Part shown: one piece after another, positions 9,411 to 64,000 of the stretch
How positions within the stretch are numbered: the first letter of the stretch is position 1
Layout: each line of letters opens with the position of its first letter
From: Geminocystis sp. NIES-3709
GTDB taxonomy: Bacteria > Cyanobacteriota > Cyanobacteriia > Cyanobacteriales > Cyanobacteriaceae
Direction of reading: 5' to 3'
Assembly (NCBI RefSeq): GCF_001548115.1
Contig: NZ_AP014821.1
Span: 1,612,001 to 1,676,000, forward strand
Length of the DNA: 64,000 nt
Translations under genes and position numbers: made by a program
The notes under the pieces: model-generated
Told to the model about the DNA's origin: nothing
The model's input: only the letters and a program-made list of their open reading frames with translations
Databases searched by the model: none

Positions 9411-10367
9411 TTAGGACATAGCTAACATTTTCTGAATCGGTTTTAAGGCTTTTACTCGAATATTTTCAGGAATATTAATCTCGGGAGTCCGATTTTTCAA
9501 CGCTAAATAAACTTTTTCGAGGGTATTCAATCTCATATAAGGGCATTCATTACAAGCACAGTTACTCTCAGGAGGTGCAGGAATAAATAACTTTTGGGGT
9601 GCATCTTTTTCCATTTGATGAATTATACCCGGTTCTGTGGCAATAATAAACTCTAAAGAATTACTTTGTAAGGCATATTTTAATAAAGCAGTAGTTGAAC
9701 CAATATAGTCTGCATGACGTAAAATAGCAGTTTCGCATTCTGGATGAGCTAAAATTTCTGCTTGAGGATGTTGGACTTTTAACTGAACAATTTTTTTCTC
9801 AGAAAAAGTCTCATGAACAATACAACTACCATCCCATAAAACCATATCTCGTCCAGTTTGTTCCATCACATAACGTCCTAAATTTTTGTCGGGGGCGAAA
9901 ATAATGGGTTGATTTTTCGGTATTTGTTGCACAATTTTAACAGCATTCGAGCTGGTGCAAATAATATCACTTAAGGCTTTGATTTCAGCACTACAATTAA
10001 TATAAGAAATAACAATATGATCGGGATATTGGGCTTTAAACTCGGCAAATTTATCGGCTGGACAACTATCTGCCAAAGAGCATCCCGCATTTAAGTCTGG
10101 TAATAATACTAATTTATCAGGATTGAGAATTTTGGCGGTTTCTGCCATAAAATGTACTCCTGCAAATAAAATTACATCAGCAGAAGTCGTTGCCGCTTGT
10201 TGTGACAATCCTAGTGAATCCCCGATATAATCTGCTATGTCTTGAATATCTCCTTCTTGGTAATAATGGGCTAAAATCACCGCATTTAGTTCTTTTTTCA
10301 TTTGCTCGATCGAGCTAAATAAATCTTGAGGAATGGATGAGGGAGCAATATTTGCAGTAAACACCAT
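9411..10367 (-). CDS. nadA: Quinolinate synthase A
   Basis: 318 aa. It condenses iminoaspartate with dihydroxyacetone phosphate to give quinolinate, the second step of de novo NAD synthesis. Visible hallmarks are [20 protein letters not shown] at the N-terminus and cysteines that could hold the 4Fe-4S cluster: Cys96 ([10 protein letters not shown]), Cys182 (WDGSCIVHE) and the C-terminal CNECPYM. The length is normal. It is transcribed alone and convergent with the gene on its left. No nadB or nadC is in the window. Confidence 0.95.
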
Positions 10368-10515
10368 TAAAAGTTATCCTGTAAGAGTAAGTTATTATCT
10401 CTATTTTATCCTAGTTATAGTAAATTTTACCATAAATCACAAAAGATTAGTGATTGTAACTTGAATTTTATCTATAGAATAATGTTTAGTTAAAAACACC
10501 GATCGAGCTAATTAA

Positions 10516-10977
10516 ATGATGAATATCGAAACGGCTAAACAAAAGGTATTTGCCCTATTATTAATGAGATTTAAACTCTCCACCATAGATTCTTTTGAAA
10601 TTACCAAAGATTGGCTTAAAAATCATCCTGACAATGATTGGAATACTTTAGAGTCTTGTTTAAAAAATAATTTGATGCGATTAGAGAATAATAAGTTAGT
10701 AGAAATATATGACCAACGCATCATCACATTAGTCAATGATTTGCGAGGAAAAGAAGGTTTAGAAATAAAAGATAGAAAGTATCGTTTAACCACTTATCAT
10801 AAGTGTTTTGTCGGTTCAGAAGCGATCGAATGGATGGAAAAACGGTATATTTTGTCAAAATCAGAGGCAATTAGATTAGGACAAGAATTAATTGACTTAA
10901 AAATTATTCATCATGTTACGGATGATCATGAGTTTAAAAATGGATTTTTTTTCTACCGTTTTTATCTTGATGAATAA
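10516..10977 (+). CDS. DEP-domain protein
   Basis: 153 aa. Residues 1-65 are helical (DWLKNHPDNDWNTLESCLKNN) with no family I recognise. Residues 70-153 match a DEP domain: LTTYHKCFVGSEAIEWM ... LGQELIDLKIIHHVTDDHEFKNG, then the YRF end. DEP domains are small helical modules that bind membranes or proteins in signalling. A start one codon later (ATG 10519) is possible. A CGATCG lies just before the gene. Role unknown. Confidence 0.75.
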   Translation: MMNIETAKQKVFALLLMRFKLSTIDSFEITKDWLKNHPDNDWNTLESCLKNNLMRLENNKLVEIYDQRIITLVNDLRGKEGLEIKDRKYRLTTYHKCFVGSEAIEWMEKRYILSKSEAIRLGQELIDLKIIHHVTDDHEFKNGFFFYRFYLDE

Positions 10978-11090
10978 TCGATCGACAAGTCCTAAAATTC
11001 TTCTGATGAAAATAAAAAAGAGGAAATAATAGAAAATGGGGAAAAGTGAAAGAAACTGAGAACTTCAAAATTCCCCACTAACATTGAGTT

Positions 11091-12344
11091 TTATTTTTTC
11101 GGCAATAAAGCGATGGGATTAATCGCACCTTCCCCTCTAGGATGAATTTCAAAATGCAAATGAGGGCCGGTACTAAAACCAGTGCTACCCATATTAGCTA
11201 TTTGTTGTCCTTGTTGAACAAATTGTCCTCGACGTACATGGATTTTGCTATTATGAGCATAAAGGGTGACTGTACCATCAAAATGACGAATTTTAACTAA
11301 GTTACCAAAACCACCAGAGTTCCATCCGGCAGTGATAACTTCTCCATCGGAAGCCGCTAAAATAGGAGTGCCTACTGGAGCCGCAATATCTATACCTTTG
11401 TGCATTCTGCCCCAACGCCAACCATAACCGGAAGTAAATACTCCCTTAGCAGGCCAAATATAGCCGTTAAATGGACGATCGCCTTCTGGAAGATAAGGTT
11501 CAGGAGAATTTATCTGAGGTAAATCCGGTGAAACCATTTGCCCTGCGGAAGGAGTGATCATCGGATTGTAATACTCTACTTGAATAGGGATCACACTAAC
11601 TAAATCTTGATCTGTTGAATTTTCAGTATTTTCTAGTTGGGAAGGATTAATGATTCTGTTGTTACTAGGTTGAAAATTACGATCGACTACATTAGACGTG
11701 TTACTAATCAAGGTAGGTTGTTCTACATTCTTGATGGAGATGTTGGTTTCAGTCTGTTGTCTTGCAAACCCCTCATTAGTGGGTACAACAACAGGTATAT
11801 TTATTGGATTATTAACGACAACAGAATTATTAACAGTCGTAGGAGGTTCATTTTCCACCTGAATAGGTATAGAGATGGATTGACTATTACTAGAAGGCTG
11901 ATAAGGTAATTCTACTGCAATGGGTAAGGAAGTAGATTGAGAGGAAGAGTTTGTAAAATTTTGAGCAATCAAATTTGGAGACTCTAACCTATTAACCACT
12001 AAATTATCAGTTTTAATATTGCCTAAAGAAGGATTAGCTTTAGCTTGATTAGCAATATTTGTTACCCTTTCATTTTTGGCGATCGTGTAGCTATTCTGCT
12101 CAATATTATCAACCATAGAAATAGAAGTCGAAGGACTCAATTCAGAATTGATAGTCTGAGAGTTTTCTACTAAGATAGACACTTCTTCTGCCTTACTTAC
12201 TAATAAAGTTGGGCGAGAAAGATCTAAATTTTCTGTTGCGGTGGCAGTGGTAGCCGCTTTGGCTAAACTAGGATTGATGATCAACCCTAAACCAAGCACT
12301 AGAACTGTTTGAGGCAATTTTTGCGATACTAATTTTAAATTCAT
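11091..12344 (-). CDS. Secreted M23 (LytM) peptidase
   Basis: About 417 aa from the ATG at 12342-12344, which gives a signal peptide (LVLGLGLIINPSLAKA); an ATG nine codons upstream is less likely. Residues 40-300 are low complexity, rich in Asn, Ser, Thr and Pro. The C-terminal domain is a lysostaphin-type M23 domain with the zinc ligands in HKGID and HLHFEIH, plus GYGWRWGRMHKGID. Such proteins cut peptide crosslinks in murein or activate amidases in the periplasm. A single gene, convergent with the DEP gene. Confidence 0.9.
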   Translation of the reverse strand: MNLKLVSQKLPQTVLVLGLGLIINPSLAKAATTATATENLDLSRPTLLVSKAEEVSILVENSQTINSELSPSTSISMVDNIEQNSYTIAKNERVTNIANQAKANPSLGNIKTDNLVVNRLESPNLIAQNFTNSSSQSTSLPIAVELPYQPSSNSQSISIPIQVENEPPTTVNNSVVVNNPINIPVVVPTNEGFARQQTETNISIKNVEQPTLISNTSNVVDRNFQPSNNRIINPSQLENTENSTDQDLVSVIPIQVEYYNPMITPSAGQMVSPDLPQINSPEPYLPEGDRPFNGYIWPAKGVFTSGYGWRWGRMHKGIDIAAPVGTPILAASDGEVITAGWNSGGFGNLVKIRHFDGTVTLYAHNSKIHVRRGQFVQQGQQIANMGSTGFSTGPHLHFEIHPRGEGAINPIALLPKK

Positions 12345-12660
12345 GGATACAATTTCCTTTTTACTCGTCACACTCTTAAAATTGGACGGTAAACTATCGA
12401 ACTAAACGATAATCTACTATTCTGAACATTAATTGAATGATAGTTATTTTTAGACTAAATTTTAGCTCAATATATCAATAAATGTCACTAAATTTTTGAT
12501 AAAATGATATAAATTTCTTATAGGTTTATTTATGATTATTTTTATTCAACTTTAATAACCTATTGATTTTCTATATAAAGAGTAATACTTCTCTTTTATG
12601 AAGACGATTTAGAGAGAATTAAACCTCAAAATATATAATTTTTACTTATACTGTGTTTAA
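12345..12660. other. AT-rich intergenic stretch
   Basis: 315 bp between the M23 peptidase start and the end of the PAP/fibrillin gene, both on the minus strand. It must hold the peptidase promoter. I see no other gene, repeat or clear terminator. Confidence 0.4.
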
Positions 12661-13311
12661 TTAGTCATTAACCATTGACTTTTGTTTTGATAGTATAAAT
12701 AAACTACCATCTCCTCCTCTACCAATGCGTAAAGATTCATCAATATAAGTTACTTTTAAACTTGGAATTCTTCCTTGAGGATTTCTAGCATTAAATACTT
12801 TTATGGGATCGAATATAGATGTTTTAATACCTAAAATTTTCTTAATAGAAATATATCTTTTTTCAAAATTGACATTAATTATATCATTTGGTAAAACTTC
12901 GTTTTCTGCAATTTTAGGGCTAAAAGTAGCTGTTACTTTCACATATCCACTAATTAATCCTGTAGAATCTTTCACAAAAGCGATATTAAAAAAAGAGGCT
13001 TTTTGAGTGTCAATTATTTGATAAACTTGTTTTAATTTAAAGCCAAAAGGTAATTGATTTAAAGAGCGAATTTCCCTAGCCGTGGAATAGTGTAGTTGCC
13101 AAATTCCATCTAAGAGATTAACCCCATAAAGTAATAGTTTTGGGAAAGGATTATAGGTTTCTAAATTATTAGTTATTTTTTCAACATAATCACTTTCTGA
13201 AGGAGATAACATTAAATCTGTGATGGGATATTGAGGATTGATATTTCTCTTGTGGGCTAGAGTTTTTATTTCTGATAATAATGCTTCTTTAAGAATGAGA
13301 CGACTTTTCAA
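12661..13311 (-). CDS. PAP/fibrillin-family lipid-associated protein
   Basis: 216 aa. The LLDGIWQLHYSTAREI block and the C-terminal TYIDESLRIGRGGDGSLFIL are the conserved elements of the plastid lipid-associated protein/fibrillin family. In plants these lipocalin-like proteins coat plastoglobules and thylakoids and affect carotenoid storage and light-stress tolerance. Cyanobacterial members are thought to act at thylakoids. It has no signal peptide. A single gene with a long upstream gap. Confidence 0.85.
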   Translation of the reverse strand: MKSRLILKEALLSEIKTLAHKRNINPQYPITDLMLSPSESDYVEKITNNLETYNPFPKLLLYGVNLLDGIWQLHYSTAREIRSLNQLPFGFKLKQVYQIIDTQKASFFNIAFVKDSTGLISGYVKVTATFSPKIAENEVLPNDIINVNFEKRYISIKKILGIKTSIFDPIKVFNARNPQGRIPSLKVTYIDESLRIGRGGDGSLFILSKQKSMVND

Positions 13312-14227
13312 AATTTTACGTTACCTTATATATTTAGTTTTTTGTAATGATATGATAACTTAGATGTGTCTCAGCTTACCATTTTCGTCTATTGCACTAA
13401 ATATTTATACTCAGCAAAGGGATTAATTTAATCTTGATGAAGGTTGAGAATGGGGAATCGTCTTTATAGCACTAATCATTGCCTATACAATTACAACATC
13501 AATCACTCAATACTTATCAATTATTTTTTTTCTAAACGAATTACCTTTCGACACTAAGTTAAATTGAAAATTTTTATTTCAAATGTTAAACAAGTATTAA
13601 GGTTTATCTTTTTTGTCAATTATTTATTAATTTAAAAAAATAAAGATCTATAATAAGAACAGAAGCAAGATTGTTAAAATAACTTAACTAATCTGAATTA
13701 AGATCGAGTTTCAAAAAAGAGATCACTTAAACAATTCTTCTATAATAACAAAGTTTATTTCTAACATGATGTGATGTGAATAAATCCTTTAAATAATAAC
13801 TAATTAATAAAACAAAAACAATATAATTTTTACACTTTAATAAAACTTTATCTGTCGTTGTTTTAATCATAATTTTATTGATTTAGTTAATAGACATCTA
13901 GGATTATTCCCAAGAATAGGGTTAAAACAGTTATTCTATCACTGTTAAATAAAGATGTCTAATATAAAAGCTGAAAATATTTTTGTCAGTAATATATATT
14001 CTTGACTGTTAGAAAAATCATGTTCATTAATTAATGATAAACACCAATAATTTTATTTATAAATTTAAAATTTATTGCGAAGAATCAGCAATGATTTTGT
14101 AGTGATAATAGAAAATAGTGATAGGAATATAAATAAATATATTCTAAAAGTTTAGATACTTTTTAAAATCATAATTTTTAAATACTTGTAAGTAAAAAAT
14201 CTTTAAAAAATATTACTTTTTAAAATC
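13312..14227. other. 900-bp AT-rich intergenic region
   Basis: No convincing gene in either strand. The promoter of the PAP/fibrillin gene lies at the left end and that of the small secreted protein at the right. The one ordered structure is a possible three-way-junction element at 13891-13961 (separate entry). The rest is very AT-rich without tandem repeats that I can see. Confidence 0.4.
13891..13961. other. Possible structured RNA or DNA element (three-way junction)
   Basis: An outer 9-bp perfect inverted repeat, TAGACATCT (13891-13899) and AGATGTCTA (13953-13961), encloses two hairpins: TATTC/GAATA with loop CCAA (13905-13918), and AACAGT/ACTGTT with a 9-nt loop (13926-13946). The layout is a compact three-way junction in an otherwise unstructured gap. 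No known RNA family is recognised. Confidence 0.35.
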
Positions 14228-33901: not shown

Positions 33902-34219
33902 TCAATAATTTTTTAATTGTTTTTTGATAACCTAGACAGTTTACTAAAATTTTCATGGTTTAAAATCGATCGAATTTTAACAATTTGTTATCATTTGATT
34001 TTAATTATTAACCCTAAAATATAATGTGATTAATGATTAAAAATATATCTACAGGATCTGAAGATTTTAATTTATTGACAATGATCGATTATATTGATGA
34101 CAATACACTAATTTTTAGAGAATATTTTGCTCATAAAATTACCTTATTTTTATTATTAAAAGTTAACTTATCATGAAATAAATGTTACTGCTTAATAACA
34201 ATAATGGATAATAATTATT
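33902..34219. other. Intergenic region with a devC 3'-end remnant
   Basis: At about 34031-34090 the sequence TAATGATTAAAAATATATCT then ACAGGATC ... GATTTTAATTTATTGACA matches the 3' end of devC at 35336-35390 with scattered changes and no open frame. It is a decayed partial duplicate on the far side of the O-methyltransferase. The remainder is AT-rich without a gene. Confidence 0.7.
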
Positions 34220-35239
34220 TTACATTTTAATTCCCTCTAATATGCAAATATCTTCGTTAGTAAAAATAATATGATCAAGAATTAAACCAGCTTGAGAAAA
34301 TAATTGTTCAAACTCTTCTTTTGTTCTTTCTTTACCGCCAGGACACATAACTAACATATTAAGATCTAACATTTTAGCTGAGGATGGCAAATTTCGATCG
34401 TTTACAATCATTTCCATGACTAAAATTTTGCTGTTATGTGTCATTGCATCTTGACAATTTTTGAGTATTTTTATGGCTCTTTCATCATCCCAATCATGGA
34501 TAATATGCTTTAACATATAAACATCTCCTCCTGATGGTATGGAATCAAAAAAACTTCCACTGATAGCTTGACAACGGTTAGAGATTCCGTGTTTTTTTAG
34601 GGTTGGTTGACAGTTACTGATTACATATTCTTCGTCAAATAAAATACCTTTACTACTAGGATATTTTTCTAATATTGAACCTAACATTTCACCGTAACCA
34701 CCACCTACATCCACGATCGTGTTAAAAGGGGAAAAATCATAATATGATAAAATCGCCTTTTCTTCAATAAAAGAAAAACTATTCATGGAATTTTCAAAAA
34801 TTTCTGCATCTTGAGGATGAGACTTAAAATATTCAAAGACATCCATACCAAAAACTTCGTCAAAAGCTGGTTTTCCTGTTTCCACACTGTATAACATTTT
34901 TCCCCATGGTTGATAGTGAGGAGATTCTCCTAACATAATAGCTGTGGCTTTCATCGATTGAGGATGATTAATACATAAATACTCAGCTAAAGGAGTCATC
35001 GTAAAATGTTGAGAGTCAATTTCAGAAAAAATACCGACACTGGCTAAACTTCTCATTAAGCGATACAATCCGGAAGGATTTGTATTTGTAAGGTTAGCTA
35101 ACTCTTGACAGGATAAAGGCTTATTTCTGAGTAAATCAGCAATATTTAATTTACTAACTACATAAATTGATTGCGAAATCCAATAACCAGAAATCATTTG
35201 CATTAGCTGAATATGGGGAGGAATTTGAGAGCTATTCAT
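34220..35239 (-). CDS. O-methyltransferase, plant-type (acetylserotonin OMT/CrtF-like)
   Basis: 339 aa. The N-terminal dimerisation winged helix (LSCQELANLTNTNPSGLYRL) is followed by a class I SAM fold with VDVGGGYGEML and LKHIIHDWDDERAIKIL, where the HxxHDW His is the catalytic base of this family. These enzymes methylate hydroxyl groups of small molecules such as phenolics or carotenoids. It lies directly after devC, in the place where devA is usually found, and is flanked by two copies of the devC tail, so it may be an acquired gene. Confidence 0.85.
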   Translation of the reverse strand: MNSSQIPPHIQLMQMISGYWISQSIYVVSKLNIADLLRNKPLSCQELANLTNTNPSGLYRLMRSLASVGIFSEIDSQHFTMTPLAEYLCINHPQSMKATAIMLGESPHYQPWGKMLYSVETGKPAFDEVFGMDVFEYFKSHPQDAEIFENSMNSFSFIEEKAILSYYDFSPFNTIVDVGGGYGEMLGSILEKYPSSKGILFDEEYVISNCQPTLKKHGISNRCQAISGSFFDSIPSGGDVYMLKHIIHDWDDERAIKILKNCQDAMTHNSKILVMEMIVNDRNLPSSAKMLDLNMLVMCPGGKERTKEEFEQLFSQAGLILDHIIFTNEDICILEGIKM

Positions 35240-35343: not shown

Positions 35344-36495
35344 TTAAAATATATCCGCAGGATCCGCCGATTTTAATTTATTAACAGCGATCGAACCGGA
35401 TAAAAAACACATAATAACTGTTAAAATAAATACTAATAAAGCTAAATCTTTTGTCATAAGAATAGGTAAACCTGTAGCTTTTGTTGCTTGATAATAAAGG
35501 AAACTTGAAATACCAAAACCCGGAATAAAACCAAGACAGGCGAGAATAATTGCTTCTTGAAAAACGAGAATTAACAAGTAAGAATTATCATAACCCATAG
35601 CTTTTAAAGTAGCATATTCGGGTAAATGATCTGCCACATCAGTATAAAGAATTTGATAAACAATGACGATACCCACCACTAAACCCATACCGGCACCAAG
35701 AGTAAAAATAAAGCCAATAGCAGTACTACTTTCCCAATAGTTTTTTTCATAATTCAAAAATTCTTCTCTCGATAAAATTAACACATCACCACCATTTAAT
35801 TTTTGTTTTAAACTATTGATAACTGTTAAAGAATCAGTATTTTTCTCCAGTTTTATAACTCCAATATCAATTAAACCTTTATTGCGATTTGGGAATAATC
35901 TTAAAAAGTTTAAATCGCTAGTAATGAGGTTTCCATCAGCACCAAAAGTTGTTCCAACAGTGAATAATCCACCTACTTTTACTTGTCTGCTATCTATTTC
36001 CGTTTTAACTTCTTTTTCTTGTAAATAAAGTTGTGAAATATTGCCAAATTCTGGACGAGACTGATCATCAAATAATACCACATCTGGCAATTTTAATTGA
36101 TCAAAATTTTCTGTTACTCCCGATAAATTAAAAACACCTTCTTTGGGATTAAAACCCACTACCATAATTTGACGAGTATTTTTATTTTCGGGATTTTTCC
36201 ATATAGAAAAACCGATATAAATAGGGTTAATTGACTCTACTCCTTCTACTCCCAAAGCCTCATATAAACGACGAGAAGAAAAACTTTTCATGGCAATTAA
36301 AGCATCGGATTGAGGACTAATTAAAAATACATCTCCTTCAATTTTTTCATGTAATCTAACGGAACTATTTAACAAAGCAGACTTAAATCCTAACTGCATA
36401 AACATTAAAATATCTGCAAAACCAATCCCGGCTAAAGCGATTAATAAACGGATTTTTTCTCTACTTAATTGTAACCAAGCTAAAGGTATTTTCAT
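35344..36495 (-). CDS. devC: DevC-type ABC exporter permease
   Basis: 383 aa. MKIPLAWLQLSREKIRLLIA with a first membrane helix, a large periplasmic domain (about 45-255), and three C-terminal helices of the MacB/FtsX type (GAGMGLVVGIVIVYQILYT; EYATLKAMGYDNSYL). DevBCA exporters work with TolC; in Anabaena one exports heterocyst glycolipids, while unicellular species use paralogues in stress responses. It follows devB in the same direction, 99 bp apart. devA, the ATPase usually next, is missing here. Confidence 0.88.
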   Translation of the reverse strand: MKIPLAWLQLSREKIRLLIALAGIGFADILMFMQLGFKSALLNSSVRLHEKIEGDVFLISPQSDALIAMKSFSSRRLYEALGVEGVESINPIYIGFSIWKNPENKNTRQIMVVGFNPKEGVFNLSGVTENFDQLKLPDVVLFDDQSRPEFGNISQLYLQEKEVKTEIDSRQVKVGGLFTVGTTFGADGNLITSDLNFLRLFPNRNKGLIDIGVIKLEKNTDSLTVINSLKQKLNGGDVLILSREEFLNYEKNYWESSTAIGFIFTLGAGMGLVVGIVIVYQILYTDVADHLPEYATLKAMGYDNSYLLILVFQEAIILACLGFIPGFGISSFLYYQATKATGLPILMTKDLALLVFILTVIMCFLSGSIAVNKLKSADPADIF

Positions 36496-58585: not shown

Positions 58586-59062
58586 ATGAGTATTAACATT
58601 TTTATTAACCAAAGTCAGATCAGTACATTAGATTTATCCCCTGTAAAAATGATTATTGAAGACTTAGAAAAACGCCAAGAAATTTTGAGTTTAGAGCAAC
58701 AATTAATTTTCAATCTTGATTATCCTAGAGAAGAAAATGATCCTCGTGAGATATCAGAAATTCCAGAAGTAAGACTTTGGTTTATTGCGTTAGATAGTTG
58801 TTATCCTTGGTTGCCTTTTTGTCTTAATTGGCGAGAGGGAGAGTTAGCTAGATATACTGCTATGCTTGTACCTCATCAATTTAACCGTAGTGAGGGAATA
58901 CAATATAATCAAGAGGCTTTAGATATTTTTGTGATGCAAAAAACTTTTATTCTTCATAGTTGGTTAACCCAAAATAATATTACTGGAAATTCTCGTTTAA
59001 AAGCGATGGCTCAAATTTTTGGTTATGATTTAGATGATAGTTTTTTCTCCCTTCTCAACTAA
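58586..59062 (+). CDS. crr6: CRR6-family NDH-1 assembly factor
   Basis: 158 aa. The text LSLEQQLIFNLDYPREENDP, IPEVRLWFIALDSCYPWLPF and ELARYTAMLVPHQFNRSEGI matches the chlororespiratory reduction 6 family. CRR6 helps assemble subunit NdhI into the photosynthetic NDH-1 complex. It lies just after gun4 and may share its transcript. Confidence 0.88.
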   Translation: MSINIFINQSQISTLDLSPVKMIIEDLEKRQEILSLEQQLIFNLDYPREENDPREISEIPEVRLWFIALDSCYPWLPFCLNWREGELARYTAMLVPHQFNRSEGIQYNQEALDIFVMQKTFILHSWLTQNNITGNSRLKAMAQIFGYDLDDSFFSLLN

Positions 59063-59199
59063 AATATACAAAAAAATTTTTAACTTTATTACTATATAAA
59101 TAGTAATTAATTTTCTGATAAAAATAACAATGTTTATAAGTAAAAATGGAGAAATTTAACTATTTTAATCCTAGTTTTATTTTTTCATCTTAACCTATA
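59063..59199. other. AT-rich spacer before the ileS remnant
   Basis: Nothing recognised apart from AT-rich sequence; the crr6 terminator would be expected here. Confidence 0.3.
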
Positions 59200-59227
59200 G
59201 AAATTACCTTCTAAGGCTTCTTTTCAT

Positions 59228-59254
59228 CGATCGCAAAGTCGCATTGCTCGATCG
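59228..59254. repeat. 27-nt hairpin element at a CGATCG site, copy A
   Basis: CGATCGCAAAGTCGCATTGC then TCGATCG. Its 6-nt ends are inverted copies of each other. Compared with the intact ileS and with its neighbour, 21 bp were added inside a CGATCG, adding seven codons in frame. Confidence 0.75.
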
Positions 59255-59308
59255 TAAATCAACGGTTCATCGCTAAAAGTTCCCACTGTGGTAGAATAAT
59301 TCCAGCAT

Positions 59309-59335
59309 CGATCACAAAGTCGCATTGCTTGATCG
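59309..59335. repeat. 27-nt hairpin element at a CGATCG site, copy B
   Basis: CGATCACAAAGTCGCATTGC then TTGATCG. It differs from copy A at two bases, G to A and C to T, which together keep the end pairing (CGATCA with TGATCG). The intact ileS has plain CATCGATCGCAC at this point (around 61714), so the 21-bp insertion is directly visible. Confidence 0.82.
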
Positions 59336-59519
59336 CACTTATGACCATCAGCATTAATCACAGCAACCTTTAAATCTCTCTCCTCAAACTGAATATCACC
59401 GAAATATTGACTAACACTTAAAGCCGATTCATCCCTTACTAACTCCACTTGAGAAACTAACAACAGATAACGCAACTCATCAACCCTGTTACCATCATTC
59501 ACACCCGTTTTTTTTATTA

Positions 59520-59906
59520 TTATAACTCCCAAATATGATCACTATCCTTTAGTGCCAATTGAACATTAGATAAATTAACAAGATCTTTAAAAGGGCTTGA
59601 TTTTGCCAATTCAATAATAGAATGTAATGTTAAAGCTAGAACTTGATTATCGTGAGATGATATAGCAGAATCAACGGTGTCAAATAGTCGTTTAAAGTTA
59701 TTCGATCGTTCATCAAAAGACAATTCTAAATACTTTATTAAAATTTCACGTTTTGCCTTTATTTCTTGAATAGTAATATTTTCTATTGCCTTTATTTCTA
59801 CCCTTTTTGTTTCTTCTATTTCTCTTGTTTTTAAATATTCTTTAATTACTTCTATCATTTCATCAAAAACTAAATTAGCATTTGGGAATCCTTGAAATTT
59901 ATTCAT
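59520..59906 (-). CDS. Small helical protein in the ileS-flanked cargo
   Basis: 128 aa, soluble, strongly helical with a charged coil (KEYLKTREIEETKRVEIKAI; IQEIKAKREILIKYLELSFD). No family recognised. It lies 39 nt after the glycine-rich membrane protein gene in the same direction, so the two may act together. Its stop is about 20 bp from the ileS remnant. Confidence 0.6.
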   Translation of the reverse strand: MNKFQGFPNANLVFDEMIEVIKEYLKTREIEETKRVEIKAIENITIQEIKAKREILIKYLELSFDERSNNFKRLFDTVDSAISSHDNQVLALTLHSIIELAKSSPFKDLVNLSNVQLALKDSDHIWEL

Positions 59907-59945
59907 AAATTTTGACCATTTTATCGATATACAAATTACTATTTT

Positions 59946-60971
59946 TTATAGGTTACAATATTTTTCTTTTATGTTGAAAGTCGCTTCATTGAGATTTCCT
60001 TGGCTGTCTAAAACAGGTGTTTTTAAAATCTCTACAAGGGCTTTTATTAAAAAATATACTTTTTGAAACTGTGGGGCATCTCTTTCAGGAATAAAATTTA
60101 CTTTTTCCAAATTTATATTTTCAGAGCGAGTCAAAAAACCATCAGAAACAAAAATTGTTGATTCTAATTTTGATAAATTCTCTATAGCTAATTGATTCAA
60201 GTTATTAACAAGGTTTTCTAATTCTTTAATTCTTGTTTGCACTTGTGCTAAAAAATTGTCTAAAGAATCTAATCTTTCTACTTCAACATTAACTTTTGCT
60301 TGATATTCGATTGCGTTTGTTAAGGTTTTTTCTCCTTGTCCTCCCAATATAAAACCTGTCACCATGAGAGCAGGTGCTACTGCAATTCCGCCTAACATTA
60401 CACTACCTAAAGCCATACCACCACCACCACTAGCAAGAGAGCCTCCTCCTAACCATGCTAAAGTCGCATTCCAAGCCGCCGCACCACTTAATCCGCCAAT
60501 GGCTGTGCCTGTACTCGCAGTGCCAAATAATCCTGCTAATGCAATAGCCCCTTGCCCTGTCGCATATCCGGCTCCTATTGCCGTAGCTCCACCTGTAGCT
60601 ATTTTTTCAGCTTTTAAAACCTCTAATTTATATTCCTGTAGCGTTTCAGGAGAAAATCCATCGAATCCCTCCAAAAATTTCAAATCACTTAGAGAAGCAT
60701 TCTGACCAATTCTTTCAATGAAATCAATAAATCTCTTAACTGTTCTTAAATGAATTTCAATTTGAGTTTCTCCATATTCTTTTGCTAAGTTGTTTGTTTC
60801 TTCAATTATTATTTCTGTTTTTTGCTTTTTATTTTCATATTTCTTTTTAGCATTTTCACCAATTCGCTTTGCATCATCCATTTTTGATAAACCATCAGCA
60901 CCTGCGGCAACCCCAACACCACCAGTAACTAATGCCAATGCCCCAATAATGATCGGAATAATAAAAATCAT
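59946..60971 (-). CDS. Glycine-zipper membrane protein with coiled coils
   Basis: 341 aa from the ATG at 60969-60971, preceded by AGGA; an ATG at 61004 overlaps the upstream ORF. An N-terminal helix (MIFIIPIIIGALALVTGGVG), a coiled stretch (45-110), then a long Gly/Ala-rich hydrophobic region (about 125-220) with TGGATAIGAGYATGQGAIAL, WLGGGSLASGGGGMALGSVM and LMVTGFILGGQGEK, then a second coiled coil (235-290). Such glycine zippers pack inside membranes, as in pore formers and some phage-defence effectors. I do not recognise a named family. It is the main gene of the cargo between the two ileS tails. Confidence 0.6.
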   Translation of the reverse strand: MIFIIPIIIGALALVTGGVGVAAGADGLSKMDDAKRIGENAKKKYENKKQKTEIIIEETNNLAKEYGETQIEIHLRTVKRFIDFIERIGQNASLSDLKFLEGFDGFSPETLQEYKLEVLKAEKIATGGATAIGAGYATGQGAIALAGLFGTASTGTAIGGLSGAAAWNATLAWLGGGSLASGGGGMALGSVMLGGIAVAPALMVTGFILGGQGEKTLTNAIEYQAKVNVEVERLDSLDNFLAQVQTRIKELENLVNNLNQLAIENLSKLESTIFVSDGFLTRSENINLEKVNFIPERDAPQFQKVYFLIKALVEILKTPVLDSQGNLNEATFNIKEKYCNL

Positions 60972-60990
60972 AGTTAACTCATCCTGTTTA

Positions 60991-61230
60991 TTACATAAAC
61001 TCATTAGCTACAATTTTACCATCTACTTTTTGATATTCATCCTCTAATAACCACGAATTAATATCCTCATAATTATTACTAGAAAATATTGATTTATACT
61101 GTTGTGCAGGATCATAAACTTGATACTTTCCTTCATTATCTCCTATTAACATTAAAATTCGAGGTGGGAAAATAATTGTATCAATCCACAACTCGACAAA
61201 TTGCCAATTATTATTTAATATTACGGGGTT
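60991..61230 (-). CDS. Small protein, possibly N-terminally truncated
   Basis: The open frame runs from just after a stop at 61230 to the stop at 60991 with no ATG before the internal RILMLIG. A TTG at 61191 would give 66 aa. Text: NWQFVELWIDTIIFPPRILM then LIGDNEGKYQVYDPAQQYKS and EDINSWLLEDEYQKVDGKIV. The upstream residues (ILNNNWQFVEL) look coding, so the true start may be lost. Lies 19 nt before the glycine-zipper gene. Family not recognised. Confidence 0.45.
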   Translation of the reverse strand, partial: NPVILNNNWQFVELWIDTIIFPPRILMLIGDNEGKYQVYDPAQQYKSIFSSNNYEDINSWLLEDEYQKVDGKIVANEFM

Positions 61231-61265
61231 TTATTCTTGGGATAACATGATAAATATTTGTTTCT

Positions 61266-61580
61266 TTAATAATTTTTAATAATTTTTATTTCAGCATAAT
61301 AAAGAAGAATTTTTGTATCATCGTTTCTAATTTGATAGCCTATGAGTTGAGAAAAATAAAGTCCATATCTTTCATAATAATCATTCTGATCCTCAATGCC
61401 TGTTTGTTCACCTTTTTCTATGATAGCTTTTATCACTCTTTCCATTATTTCTAAATCATTAAAAACATGAGCTTTACCTTCTTTTTTGAGTAATCTTTTT
61501 ACTTGTGGAGTACCATTAATATGTTTTGCGAATAAACTTTCACGAGAATCTTTTACTATTTTTTCTGAATACCAGTCATA
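61266..61580 (-). pseudogene. Start-less C-terminal fragment of an unknown protein
   Basis: 104 codons open after a TAA, with no start codon: YDWYSEKIVKDSRESLFAKH, INGTPQVKRLLKKEGKAHVF, NDLEIMERVIKAIIEKGEQT, then RYGLYFSQLIGYQI. The composition and even codon pattern look like real protein. The missing start suggests the C-terminal end of a larger gene, for example a toxin tip that was cut off. It begins 45 bp after the ileS stop on the same strand and is followed by the small ORF at 60991-61230. The function is not established. Confidence 0.5.
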
Positions 61581-61625
61581 TTAAATTTTGGCGTTAACTG
61601 GGTGAGAAAATCCCACCCCATTTGT

Positions 61626-64000
61626 TTAGAAATTACCCGTCAAGGCTTCCTTACACCTGTCGCAGATCAAAGGTTCATTGCTAAAAGTACCCACTGTGGT
61701 AGAATAATTCCAGCATCGATCGCACTTATGACCTTCAGCGTTTAAAACTGCTACCTTCAAAGTAGTATCATTAAGCTGAATTTCTCCTTGATATTGACCA
61801 TCATTCAACGCTGATTCCTCACTAACTAACTCCACTTGCGACACAAGGAGAAGATAACGCAATTCATCAACTCTGTTACCATCATTCAAAGCAATACTAG
61901 GATTAAGATTAGTAATAGTTTCCGTTAGCTTAACTTCCACATCATAAATTAATACTTTTGCTTCTAAAGATGAACCGATGAGCTTTTGATTACGAGCGTC
62001 ATCTAAAACTTTATTAACTCCCGTACGAATATTGCGTAATTGTCCCCATTTTGATAGTAAATCAGGGTTTTTTACCCACTGGGGTTCTAATTTAACCCAA
62101 CCAGCCTCAAACACCGAATTATAAGGGTTTTTATAGGGGAGATTCTGCCAAATATCCTCTGCCATGTGACATAATACTGGTGCGATCGCCTTTGCTAGAT
62201 TTTCGAGAATGATTGCCATAACAGTTTGACAACTGCGACGACGGGGAGAATTAGGATCAGAAATATAGAGTCTATCCTTCGCAATATCGAGGTAAAAATT
62301 AGATAAATCAACTACACAGAAATTTTGTACTTTTTGGAAAAATTTAAAGAATTGATAATTCTCAAAGGCTTCGGTAATTTCGCTAAAAACTAAATGAGTT
62401 TCGTGGAGAATATACTTATCTAATTCGGGTAAATTTTCATAACTAACAGCATCTTTTGCCGGGTTAAAATCGTGCAAATTACCTAATAAAAATCGAGCGG
62501 TATTACGAATTTTACGATAAACGTCCGCAAGTTGTTTGATGATATTATCTCCGATGCGCACATCCCCAGAATAGTCTGTAGAAGACACCCATAAACGCAG
62601 TACATCTGCTCCGTATGGTGGTTGTTGTTTCTGATTTTTGCCACCATTGATGATAAGATTGGGATCGACGACGTTACCTAATGATTTACTCATCTTCGTA
62701 CCCTTTTCATCCAAAACGAAACCATGAGTTAACACAGTTTTATAAGGAGCGATGCCGTTTACTGCTACACTGGTTAAAAGACTAGACTGAAACCATCCCC
62801 GGTGTTGATCTGAGCCTTCCAAATACAAGTCAACTGGATATTTCAACTCCTCTCTTTGATTGGCAACTGCCGCCCAAGATGAACCAGAATCGAACCAGAC
62901 ATCCATAGTATCCATACCCTTGCGGTAAGTTTTGCCGTTGTTACGATAACTTTCGGGTAACAATTCCTCTACCGACAACTCCCACCAAGCATCAGAGCCT
63001 TTTTCCCTGATAATATCTCTAACGTGGTTAATCGTCTCCTCATTCAATAAAGGTTCGTTTGTTTCCTCATCGTAAAACACCGGAATAGGTAAACCCCAAC
63101 TGCGTTGACGAGAAATACACCAGTCACTTCTGTCTCCCACCATAGGAGTAATACGATTTTCTCCCTGTGCTGGAATCCACTTAACCTCTTTAATTGCCTT
63201 TAATGCTAAGTCACGGAAACCATCGACAGAGGCGAACCATTGCTCTGTAGCACGGAAAATAGTCGGTTTTTTAGTACGCCAATCGTAGGGATATTTATGG
63301 GCGTAGGCTTCTTCCTTCCATAAACTACCTTTTGCAGTTAAAGCCTCAATAATCGCCTGATTTGCGTCTTTTAACACATTTAACCCTTGAAATTCTCCCG
63401 CTTCTTCCGTAAAATTCCCTTTATCATCCACTGGAGAGAGAATAGGCAAGTTATATTTTTGTCCTGTGATATAATCTTCTAAACCATGACCAGGTGCAGT
63501 ATGTACTAAACCTGTACCAGATTCCGTAGTGATATAATCACCACCGATGACAATAGGGCTTTCTCTGTCAAAGAGGGGATGCTTATAGATGGATAATTCT
63601 AAATCAGCACCTTTGATAACGGTTTTGAGGACTAACAAAAAATTGAGGGTATTGTTTAAACTTTCGACTAAGTCTTTGGCAACGATGAGAAATCTTGGAG
63701 GGCAATAAGTTTCTTTCTCTGAAGGGGGAATTTCAAACTTTCCCTCAAAATCGGCAGGAATAACACATTCAGAGCCTCCTTGTGCTGGAAGATTGGGAAA
63801 GATTACTTCTACCACTGCATAGTCTAAATTACCATTGACAGCAACGGCAAGATTACCGGGGATTGTCCAAGGGGTTGTCGTCCAAATTGCTACTTCGAGA
63901 TTAGGCATAAATTCTGCCAAAGATTGAGCCTTTTCGCCTAACTTCGTTACCTTAAAACTAGTGTAGATACTGCGAGAGGTATGCCCTTCAGGATATTCTA
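61626..64000 (-). CDS. ileS: Isoleucyl-tRNA synthetase (C-terminal part, runs off right edge)
   Basis: The frame stays open to the window edge (YPEGHTSRSIYTSFKVTKLG upstream of the first internal Met), so 790 C-terminal residues are seen. Editing domain: TTPWTIPGNLAVAVN and TAPGHGLEDY. KMSKS loop: KGTKMSKSLGNVVDP. C-terminal zinc finger: HKCDRCWNYSTTVG then CDRCKEALTGNF. It charges tRNA-Ile and edits valine. The last 85 codons have a decayed duplicate at 59200-59501. Confidence 0.95.
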   Translation of the reverse strand, partial: EYPEGHTSRSIYTSFKVTKLGEKAQSLAEFMPNLEVAIWTTTPWTIPGNLAVAVNGNLDYAVVEVIFPNLPAQGGSECVIPADFEGKFEIPPSEKETYCPPRFLIVAKDLVESLNNTLNFLLVLKTVIKGADLELSIYKHPLFDRESPIVIGGDYITTESGTGLVHTAPGHGLEDYITGQKYNLPILSPVDDKGNFTEEAGEFQGLNVLKDANQAIIEALTAKGSLWKEEAYAHKYPYDWRTKKPTIFRATEQWFASVDGFRDLALKAIKEVKWIPAQGENRITPMVGDRSDWCISRQRSWGLPIPVFYDEETNEPLLNEETINHVRDIIREKGSDAWWELSVEELLPESYRNNGKTYRKGMDTMDVWFDSGSSWAAVANQREELKYPVDLYLEGSDQHRGWFQSSLLTSVAVNGIAPYKTVLTHGFVLDEKGTKMSKSLGNVVDPNLIINGGKNQKQQPPYGADVLRLWVSSTDYSGDVRIGDNIIKQLADVYRKIRNTARFLLGNLHDFNPAKDAVSYENLPELDKYILHETHLVFSEITEAFENYQFFKFFQKVQNFCVVDLSNFYLDIAKDRLYISDPNSPRRRSCQTVMAIILENLAKAIAPVLCHMAEDIWQNLPYKNPYNSVFEAGWVKLEPQWVKNPDLLSKWGQLRNIRTGVNKVLDDARNQKLIGSSLEAKVLIYDVEVKLTETITNLNPSIALNDGNRVDELRYLLLVSQVELVSEESALNDGQYQGEIQLNDTTLKVAVLNAEGHKCDRCWNYSTTVGTFSNEPLICDRCKEALTGNF

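Follow-up and report, generated by a model that had tools for sequence, protein, structure and literature searches.

The 64,000-nucleotide stretch of the genome of Geminocystis sp. NIES-3709 analysed here (the window; G000:C1:1612001-1676000 in our numbering, in which G000 is this genome and f1 its family) contains the isoleucyl-tRNA synthetase gene ileS, the 3′ end of which occurs a second time, in decayed form, behind a group of small genes. The stop codon of the intact gene lies at 61626-61628 on the minus strand, and relative coordinates behind ileS are counted from its last sense base (0; window position 61629), with positive values running downstream. The initial annotation had described this duplication, in the same direction and about 2.1 kb apart, as some 85 codons at 59200-59501; alignments and shuffles bear out both copies and their orientation, and what changes is the extent of the far copy, which spans ileS from -259 to about the stop, i.e. 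the last 86-87 codons (about 260 nt, at 59198-59501). The far and near copies align in three ungapped blocks with 77, 91 and 76% identity, or with gaps over 250 columns at 74% identity (E 1e-45), and their match scores 173 bits, whereas 200 shuffles with dinucleotide content nearly preserved reached at most 28 bits. The near end and the far copy are 2,124 bp apart, with four minus-strand open reading frames (ORFs) of at least 50 aa (59-352 aa) between them. Within the far copy, TGA has taken the place of one cysteine codon, and a further two in-frame 21-nt units sit in the decayed zinc-finger codons, with a possible relic of one such unit in the far copy of G003. The idea that these units are a dispersed cyanobacterial repeat was dropped after a search of eight genomes with up to 2 mismatches, which found the unit twice in G000 (both in the far copy) and once in G004.

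The two ends look like sequences of different ancestry, the far copy being apparently the displaced native end of ileS and the near end apparently foreign from about -439 nt onwards. The change point in the ileS of G000 falls at about -439 nt (2-log-likelihood interval -468 to -429, window 62058-62097), and in G004 an excess of differences likewise begins at -439 (-565 to -429); for each of the two genomes, none of 500 shuffles reached the observed change point. The ratio of differences in the end to those in the body is 2.7-3.3 for G000 and G004 versus 1.1-1.8 for four controls, and G000 and G001 have 114 of the last 146 IleS residues in common, whereas three native pairs each share 139. A tree of the ileS body places G000 as sister to G001 (support 100/98) and rejects G000 with G004 (approximately unbiased test, p-AU 0.008; this and the following p values are somewhat optimistic, because the groupings were named after the identity windows had been viewed). 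By contrast, a tree built from the last 450 nt pairs G000 with G004 (94/100, not starred) and rejects G000 with G001 (p-AU 0.0006). The far copy groups with the ileS ends of G001, G003, G008 and G011 and with the first far copy of G008 (99/98.5), a grouping of far with near copy is rejected (p-AU 0.00015), and at 17 diagnostic sites the far copy agrees with the native type in 15 cases, with the near end in one and with neither in one.

The flanks can be traced in a similar way. Sequence after the far copy (type 1) matches the post-ileS flanks of G001 (4 of 1000 shuffles as high), G011 (7/1000) and G020 (0/1000, and E 9e-9 in a separate comparison) as well as the sequence behind the first copy of G008 (0/1000), and the same shuffle test gave no match to seven other near flanks (type 2). 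The near flank matches those of G003, G004, G006, G009 and G012 (0/1000 shuffles each) and G013 (10/1000). The idea, already put forward in the initial annotation, that a replacement end lies beside the cargo and that the displaced original decayed on its far side is upheld by the trees and the change point: the tail-versus-body phylogeny suggested there reveals a conflict between near end and ileS body, and the far copy is native-type and continues into a native flank.

The cargo between the copies (see the table) consists of a candidate defence gene and a DUF6972 gene, together with two further ORFs, and includes no restriction-modification (R-M) system. Its first ~640 bp behind ileS are 91.8% identical to G004 and 93.6% to G003, and the 128-aa ORF plus the 3′ part of the 352-aa ORF are 94.6% identical to G003, which exceeds the 91% identity of ileS itself. 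A sequence search of the PDB with the 352-aa protein returned one match at E 0.088 and nothing usable. We found no relative in which ileS is joined to crr6, the first host gene past the scar; in both G004 and G001, crr6 has a different location.

Features of the two ileS ends, the cargo between them and a second scar in the window
Feature	Position	Strand	Basis
ileS, intact	61626..64000, continues past window	-	ORF and Pfam domains; full gene read from genome
Apparently foreign ileS 3′ end	61626..62068	-	change point, trees, leave-one-out control
Inverted repeat after near ileS end (type 2), terminator-like	61600..61619	-	alignments
Decayed DUF6972 gene (ORF 61266-61445)	61220..61579	-	PF22319, E 1.9e-17
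66-aa ORF, counterpart of 85-aa ORF after DUF6972 in G003/G004	60991..61191	-	ORF list, cargo comparison
352-aa glycine-rich protein, candidate antiphage gene	59946..61004	-	PADLOC PDC-M09A, E 4.7e-28
128-aa ORF, no family above cut-off	59520..59906	-	ORF list, profile searches
Apparently displaced native-type ileS 3′ end, decayed	59198..59501	-	alignments, trees
Extra in-frame 21-nt unit, first cysteine pair, far copy	59309..59330	-	alignments and unit search
Extra in-frame 21-nt unit, second cysteine pair, far copy	59228..59249	-	alignments and unit search
Native-type post-ileS sequence (type 1) after far copy	59145..59197	-	flank shuffle test
crr6, first host gene past scar	58586..59062	+	PF08847, E 4.6e-73
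FtsX-like permease, 3′ end copied	35344..36495	-	PF02687, E 3.8e-14
O-methyltransferase gene inserted behind permease	34220..35239	-	PF00891, E 7e-51
Partial copy of permease 3′ end	34040..34088	-	83.7%, E 6e-11

The ileS 3′ end is a gene-insertion hotspot in family f1. We recovered this end from 12 of 15 f1 genomes (none from G002, G005 and G014), and searched the sequence behind it (14 kb for most genomes, 5.7 kb for G007 and 1.1 kb on the ileS contig of G003) with a profile of the last 80 nt of ileS, counting same-strand downstream matches at E<0.01. Seven of the 12 genomes carry tail copies, nine in total (G000, G001, G003, G004 with two, G006, G008 with two, and G009); in G003, ileS and the far copy are on two contigs and their linkage is inferred. 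All nine lie on the ileS strand, the best opposite-strand match having an E value of 0.25. Copy starts range from about -24 to -259 and copy ends from about -2 to +50, and the near boundary varies from about 0 to +50. For the first cargo of G008, which sits between the near end and a far copy running into the post-ileS flank of G011 and G001, relatives without the cargo exist, namely G011, which has no tail copy, and G001, which has only a short copy further on. The expected relative with a single tail and no cargo is thus available for G008, but for the cargo of the window no clean empty ileS-crr6 site was found. The copy in G001 is short and fused to the end of a Sel1-repeat gene. A Sel1-repeat gene behind ileS (L031 14127-14405, L032 13198-13437) has final codons that resemble the ileS end, with a similar flank after them, and the 3′ end of this gene seems to have been captured from an ileS tail, clearly in G001 (E 0.0012) and weakly in G003, G004 and G020.

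The initial annotation suggested looking for variable cargo at this site, and the cargo does differ between relatives. A Pfam survey of 10 stretches in nine f1 genomes, which covered 59 ORFs (minimum length 55 aa, with overlapping and spurious ones counted), yielded 22 families but neither an integrase nor a transposase at E≤0.001. In G004 and G006 the cargo pairs a C5-methylase with a putative nuclease, a combination that also stands immediately after ileS in G013, where there is no tail copy. G008 and G009 carry a D12 methylase and an EcoRV-type nuclease (PF09233, E 6e-118); R-M genes are present among the cargo of G004, G006, G008 and G009. Further cargo comprises DUF2283, MqsA-like, Phd/YoeB/ParE-type, CAP-domain, DUF6972 and Sel1 genes, a PD-(D/E)XK protein, HIRAN and a Dam-like methylase. 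The modules reappear in differing order across f1 genomes, and in 44 boundary windows inspected by eye, with no formal motif search, no common motif or cassette boundary was evident at module ends. In G003 (L033 1-6658) parts of neighbouring modules are repeated on either side of a HIRAN gene and a Dam-like methylase, which again amounts to partial duplications around an insert.

Two of these modules were traced through 388 genomes of the order. The putative nuclease beside the C5-methylase, for which a PDB sequence search gave no match, occurs in 4 of 388 genomes; it is located behind ileS in all three f1 carriers, and in the fourth carrier (G061) it is not on the ileS contig. EcoRV-type nucleases are found in 11 of the 388 genomes, and the closest pair (91%) lies behind ileS in two genera, the others being 43-74% identical and on other contigs or distant, with one of them in f1 (G004, 58%). 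At the DNA level, this EcoRV-type pair is 90% identical compared with 84% for the ileS body. The identity of the C5 cassette is not above that of ileS (78 vs 81, and 88 vs 87), values that fit descent as well as transfer.

Tail copies also occur behind ileS in other families, which we searched with each genome's own ileS tail; the sets of genomes and loci overlap, so that their counts are not additive. Among 40 genomes (one with <0.3 kb of sequence) there was one match below E 1e-5, in G072, with a PIN-type toxin pair between the ends. Of 39 named loci, 34 had at least 1.5 kb and five were too short; L050 and L052 were positive and L061 is doubtful (a 30 bp match at 8 kb). Another 20 genomes (one with 0.2 kb) added G161, which is identical to L050, and G356. 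The most elaborate case is L050 (Snowella sp. ULC335bin1, 10312-14070), with three ileS-tail copies in series: ileS, a pentapeptide-repeat gene, a copy, a YoeB-type pair, a copy, a Uma2 gene, a copy and a GmrSD-type gene. G356 has a truncated C5-methylase between its copies, and L052 a YafQ-like pair (below the Pfam cut-off) and a 31-bp copy.

Similar arrangements exist at other genes. The window itself contains a second scar, in which an O-methyltransferase gene separates an FtsX-like permease gene from a partial copy of its 3′ end. O-methyltransferase homologues are present in G008 and G011 at other places, and G001 is a relative lacking the insert: no O-methyltransferase gene follows its permease, and from +49 behind the permease its sequence matches the G000 flank starting ~150 bp past the copy (82%). 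In G008 (L185 5956-10085, minus strand) an Eco57I-type gene is followed by a PemK-type pair and then by a copy, 91% identical, of its own last 120 nt. As a measure of background, we counted gene 3′ ends with a match (E≤1e-4) within 5 kb downstream. In G004 (400 kb) plus the window, 9 of 259 genes have such a match: ileS, the permease of the second scar, L144 and L145 (7-bp tandem repeats), L129 (similar end codons), L128 7864 (a paralogue as neighbour), L128 415, L136 4525 and L136 9233. In L144 and L145, both of G004, the last codons run into the tandem repeats, which recur 2-4 kb downstream. In G008 the count is 3 of 218 genes, namely L185 (the same pattern, with a toxin-antitoxin (TA) pair), L179 and L177. 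With tail copies in 7 of 12 genomes, ileS in f1 stands far above this background of gene-end copies.

We consider it reasonably probable that the window preserves the scar of an integrase-free gene acquisition at this hotspot, made by homology on one side and an illegitimate join on the other. Incoming DNA from another cyanobacterium would have carried an ileS 3′ end together with its terminator and the genes that followed. This DNA would have recombined homologously with the resident ileS about 440 nt before the end of the gene, and its other end would have been attached within the same resident gene, at a point 259 nt from the stop where no homology is evident. Replacement of the resident stretch from -439 to -259 would have given a complete hybrid ileS and a gain of cargo, with the cell's own last 86 codons retained as a useless remnant before the old downstream sequence. 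Homology-facilitated illegitimate recombination (HFIR) should leave one end made by homologous exchange, as the foreign end from -439 and the tree conflict indicate here, and should place the homologous joint upstream of the illegitimate one, which is the order in G000 (-439 and -259). Natural transformation would be a plausible route of entry: the ComEC family is present in all eight f1 genomes tested, as is the DprA family (7 of the 8 over the cut-off). The near-end exchange and the cargo may well have arrived in one event, and ileS might recur as acceptor if only arrivals that restore a full ileS survive and if donors carry such genes behind ileS. A more tentative extension is that the ileS end acts as a portable, integrase-free handle. 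Each defence or TA module would travel with an ileS end and terminator, any ileS-bearing cell could acquire it through recombination in that gene, arrivals would stack as a cassette array with the newest beside ileS and the oldest farthest away, and selection for an intact ileS would make the site self-repairing, so that it could take on the role of an attachment site across cyanobacterial families.

Several observations weigh against this reading. The ComEC family also occurs in 10 of 14 control genomes, including E. coli, so its presence permits the uptake route and is no proof of competence. No microhomology was shown at any of the junctions that were read. The foreign end of G000 contains a native-like stretch at -240 to -180. 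G003 has related cargo (94.6%) and yet combines a native-type ileS end with a type 2 flank, so that in G000 and G004 the exchange of the near end may have happened separately. The scar pattern is not confined to ileS, and in genus g39 (family f9) three genomes (G072, G050 and G196) share ileS, the PIN-type pair and the first copy. Finally, near and far copies look like one lineage in G009 (95.6%) and in G356 (81% over 42 nt, with the same kind of inverted repeat behind both), and plain target duplication explains these two cases equally well.

A mechanism based on such duplication, in which R-M and TA modules insert themselves and duplicate some 25-260 bp of their target, would also require a later exchange of the G000 near end through ordinary recombination; we see it as possible, if rather doubtful. 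It draws on the long, variable direct target repeats that flank R-M and TA cargo, on the likeness of near and far copies in G009 and G356, on the PemK-type pair behind the Eco57I-type gene of G008, where the pattern involves another gene, and on the long and variable target duplications cited for R-M systems in the available text of PMC3031569. It agrees less well with the window, in which the copies differ in ancestry (far with near rejected at p-AU 0.00015), the foreign stretch of the near copy starts upstream of the duplicated part, and one insert is an O-methyltransferase gene, which is neither R-M nor TA.

The initial annotation itself favoured a remnant of a site-specific integrative element with ileS as attachment site, the integrase being lost or acting in trans. 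Repeated use of the same gene, a foreign 3′ end beside the cargo and stacked copies would all be expected of such an element, but there is no integrase or transposase in the 59 cargo ORFs, the near boundary wanders between about 0 and +50, and copies with starting points between about -24 and -259, and lengths of about 24-259 nt of ileS, leave no fixed attachment core. We regard this explanation as improbable. Its stated alternative, a simple tandem duplication of the ileS end followed by gene insertion between the copies, would yield the same layout, and we think it very improbable: the tail phylogeny rejects it for the window (p-AU 0.00015) unless the near end was exchanged afterwards, and the pattern recurs with different cargo in several genomes. 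The chance that the remnant stems from another, separate gene for isoleucyl-tRNA synthetase, also raised there, appears negligible, since the sole point in its favour is that the remnant differs from its own ileS, whereas in the tree it falls among ileS ends of native type and its sequence runs on into the flank that follows ileS in relatives.

How small defence and TA genes without a recombinase move between genomes is, in our judgement, poorly understood. The scars described here show in which direction and order arrivals at one gene took place, and approximately where their breakpoints lie, for more than one family of cyanobacteria, and in the window they involve an essential tRNA synthetase, the last 146 codons of which differ far beyond expectation from those of a sister species. 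A systematic search for gene-end remnants of this kind could uncover a record of gene acquisition through a single arm. A literature search, judged from titles and the beginnings of abstracts, found no paper stating a hotspot at ileS; Nobusato 2000 and Furuta 2010 are known to us only as citations.

Several known systems resemble the ileS scars in part. Site-specific elements at gene 3′ ends likewise provide a replacement gene end, comparable to the foreign near end here, the arrival of which together with cargo is inferred; they differ in that the 59 cargo ORFs include no tyrosine or serine recombinase and there is no fixed core. Integron cassette arrays likewise consist of serial modules of one or two genes with a short segment recurring after each, as in Snowella, but the f1 cargo is without an integron integrase and what recurs here is an ileS end, the length of which varies. 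The target duplications of R-M systems, as presented in the available part of PMC3031569, are also long and variable direct repeats, and single-copy relatives exist here as well (G011 for G008, G001 for the second scar); unlike in those systems, the cargo of the window is not R-M, its copies differ in ancestry, and cargo elsewhere includes TA, candidate defence and metabolic genes. In the sequential displacement described for the type VI secretion system (T6SS) of Vibrio cholerae, successive modules behind a conserved anchor push older 3′ pieces downstream, at least in the portion of PMC5361080 available to us. There the anchor belongs to the secretion locus, and it is this locus that has its own toxin part exchanged, whereas here a housekeeping gene with no relation to the cargo serves as anchor and the displaced pieces are ileS ends. 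The closest likeness is to HFIR, with homology at one end only, replacement of a resident segment and no recombinase (PMC2884548 and PMC5361080, in their available text). The accessible sections of these and a related paper discuss HFIR for small variable segments (PMC2884548), propose it for stacked T6SS immunity genes (PMC5361080) and report HFIR-like effector swapping (PMC11751169). Those cases concern laboratory transformation or variable loci, whereas the events described here would have occurred repeatedly at the end of one essential gene and left a readable remnant behind.

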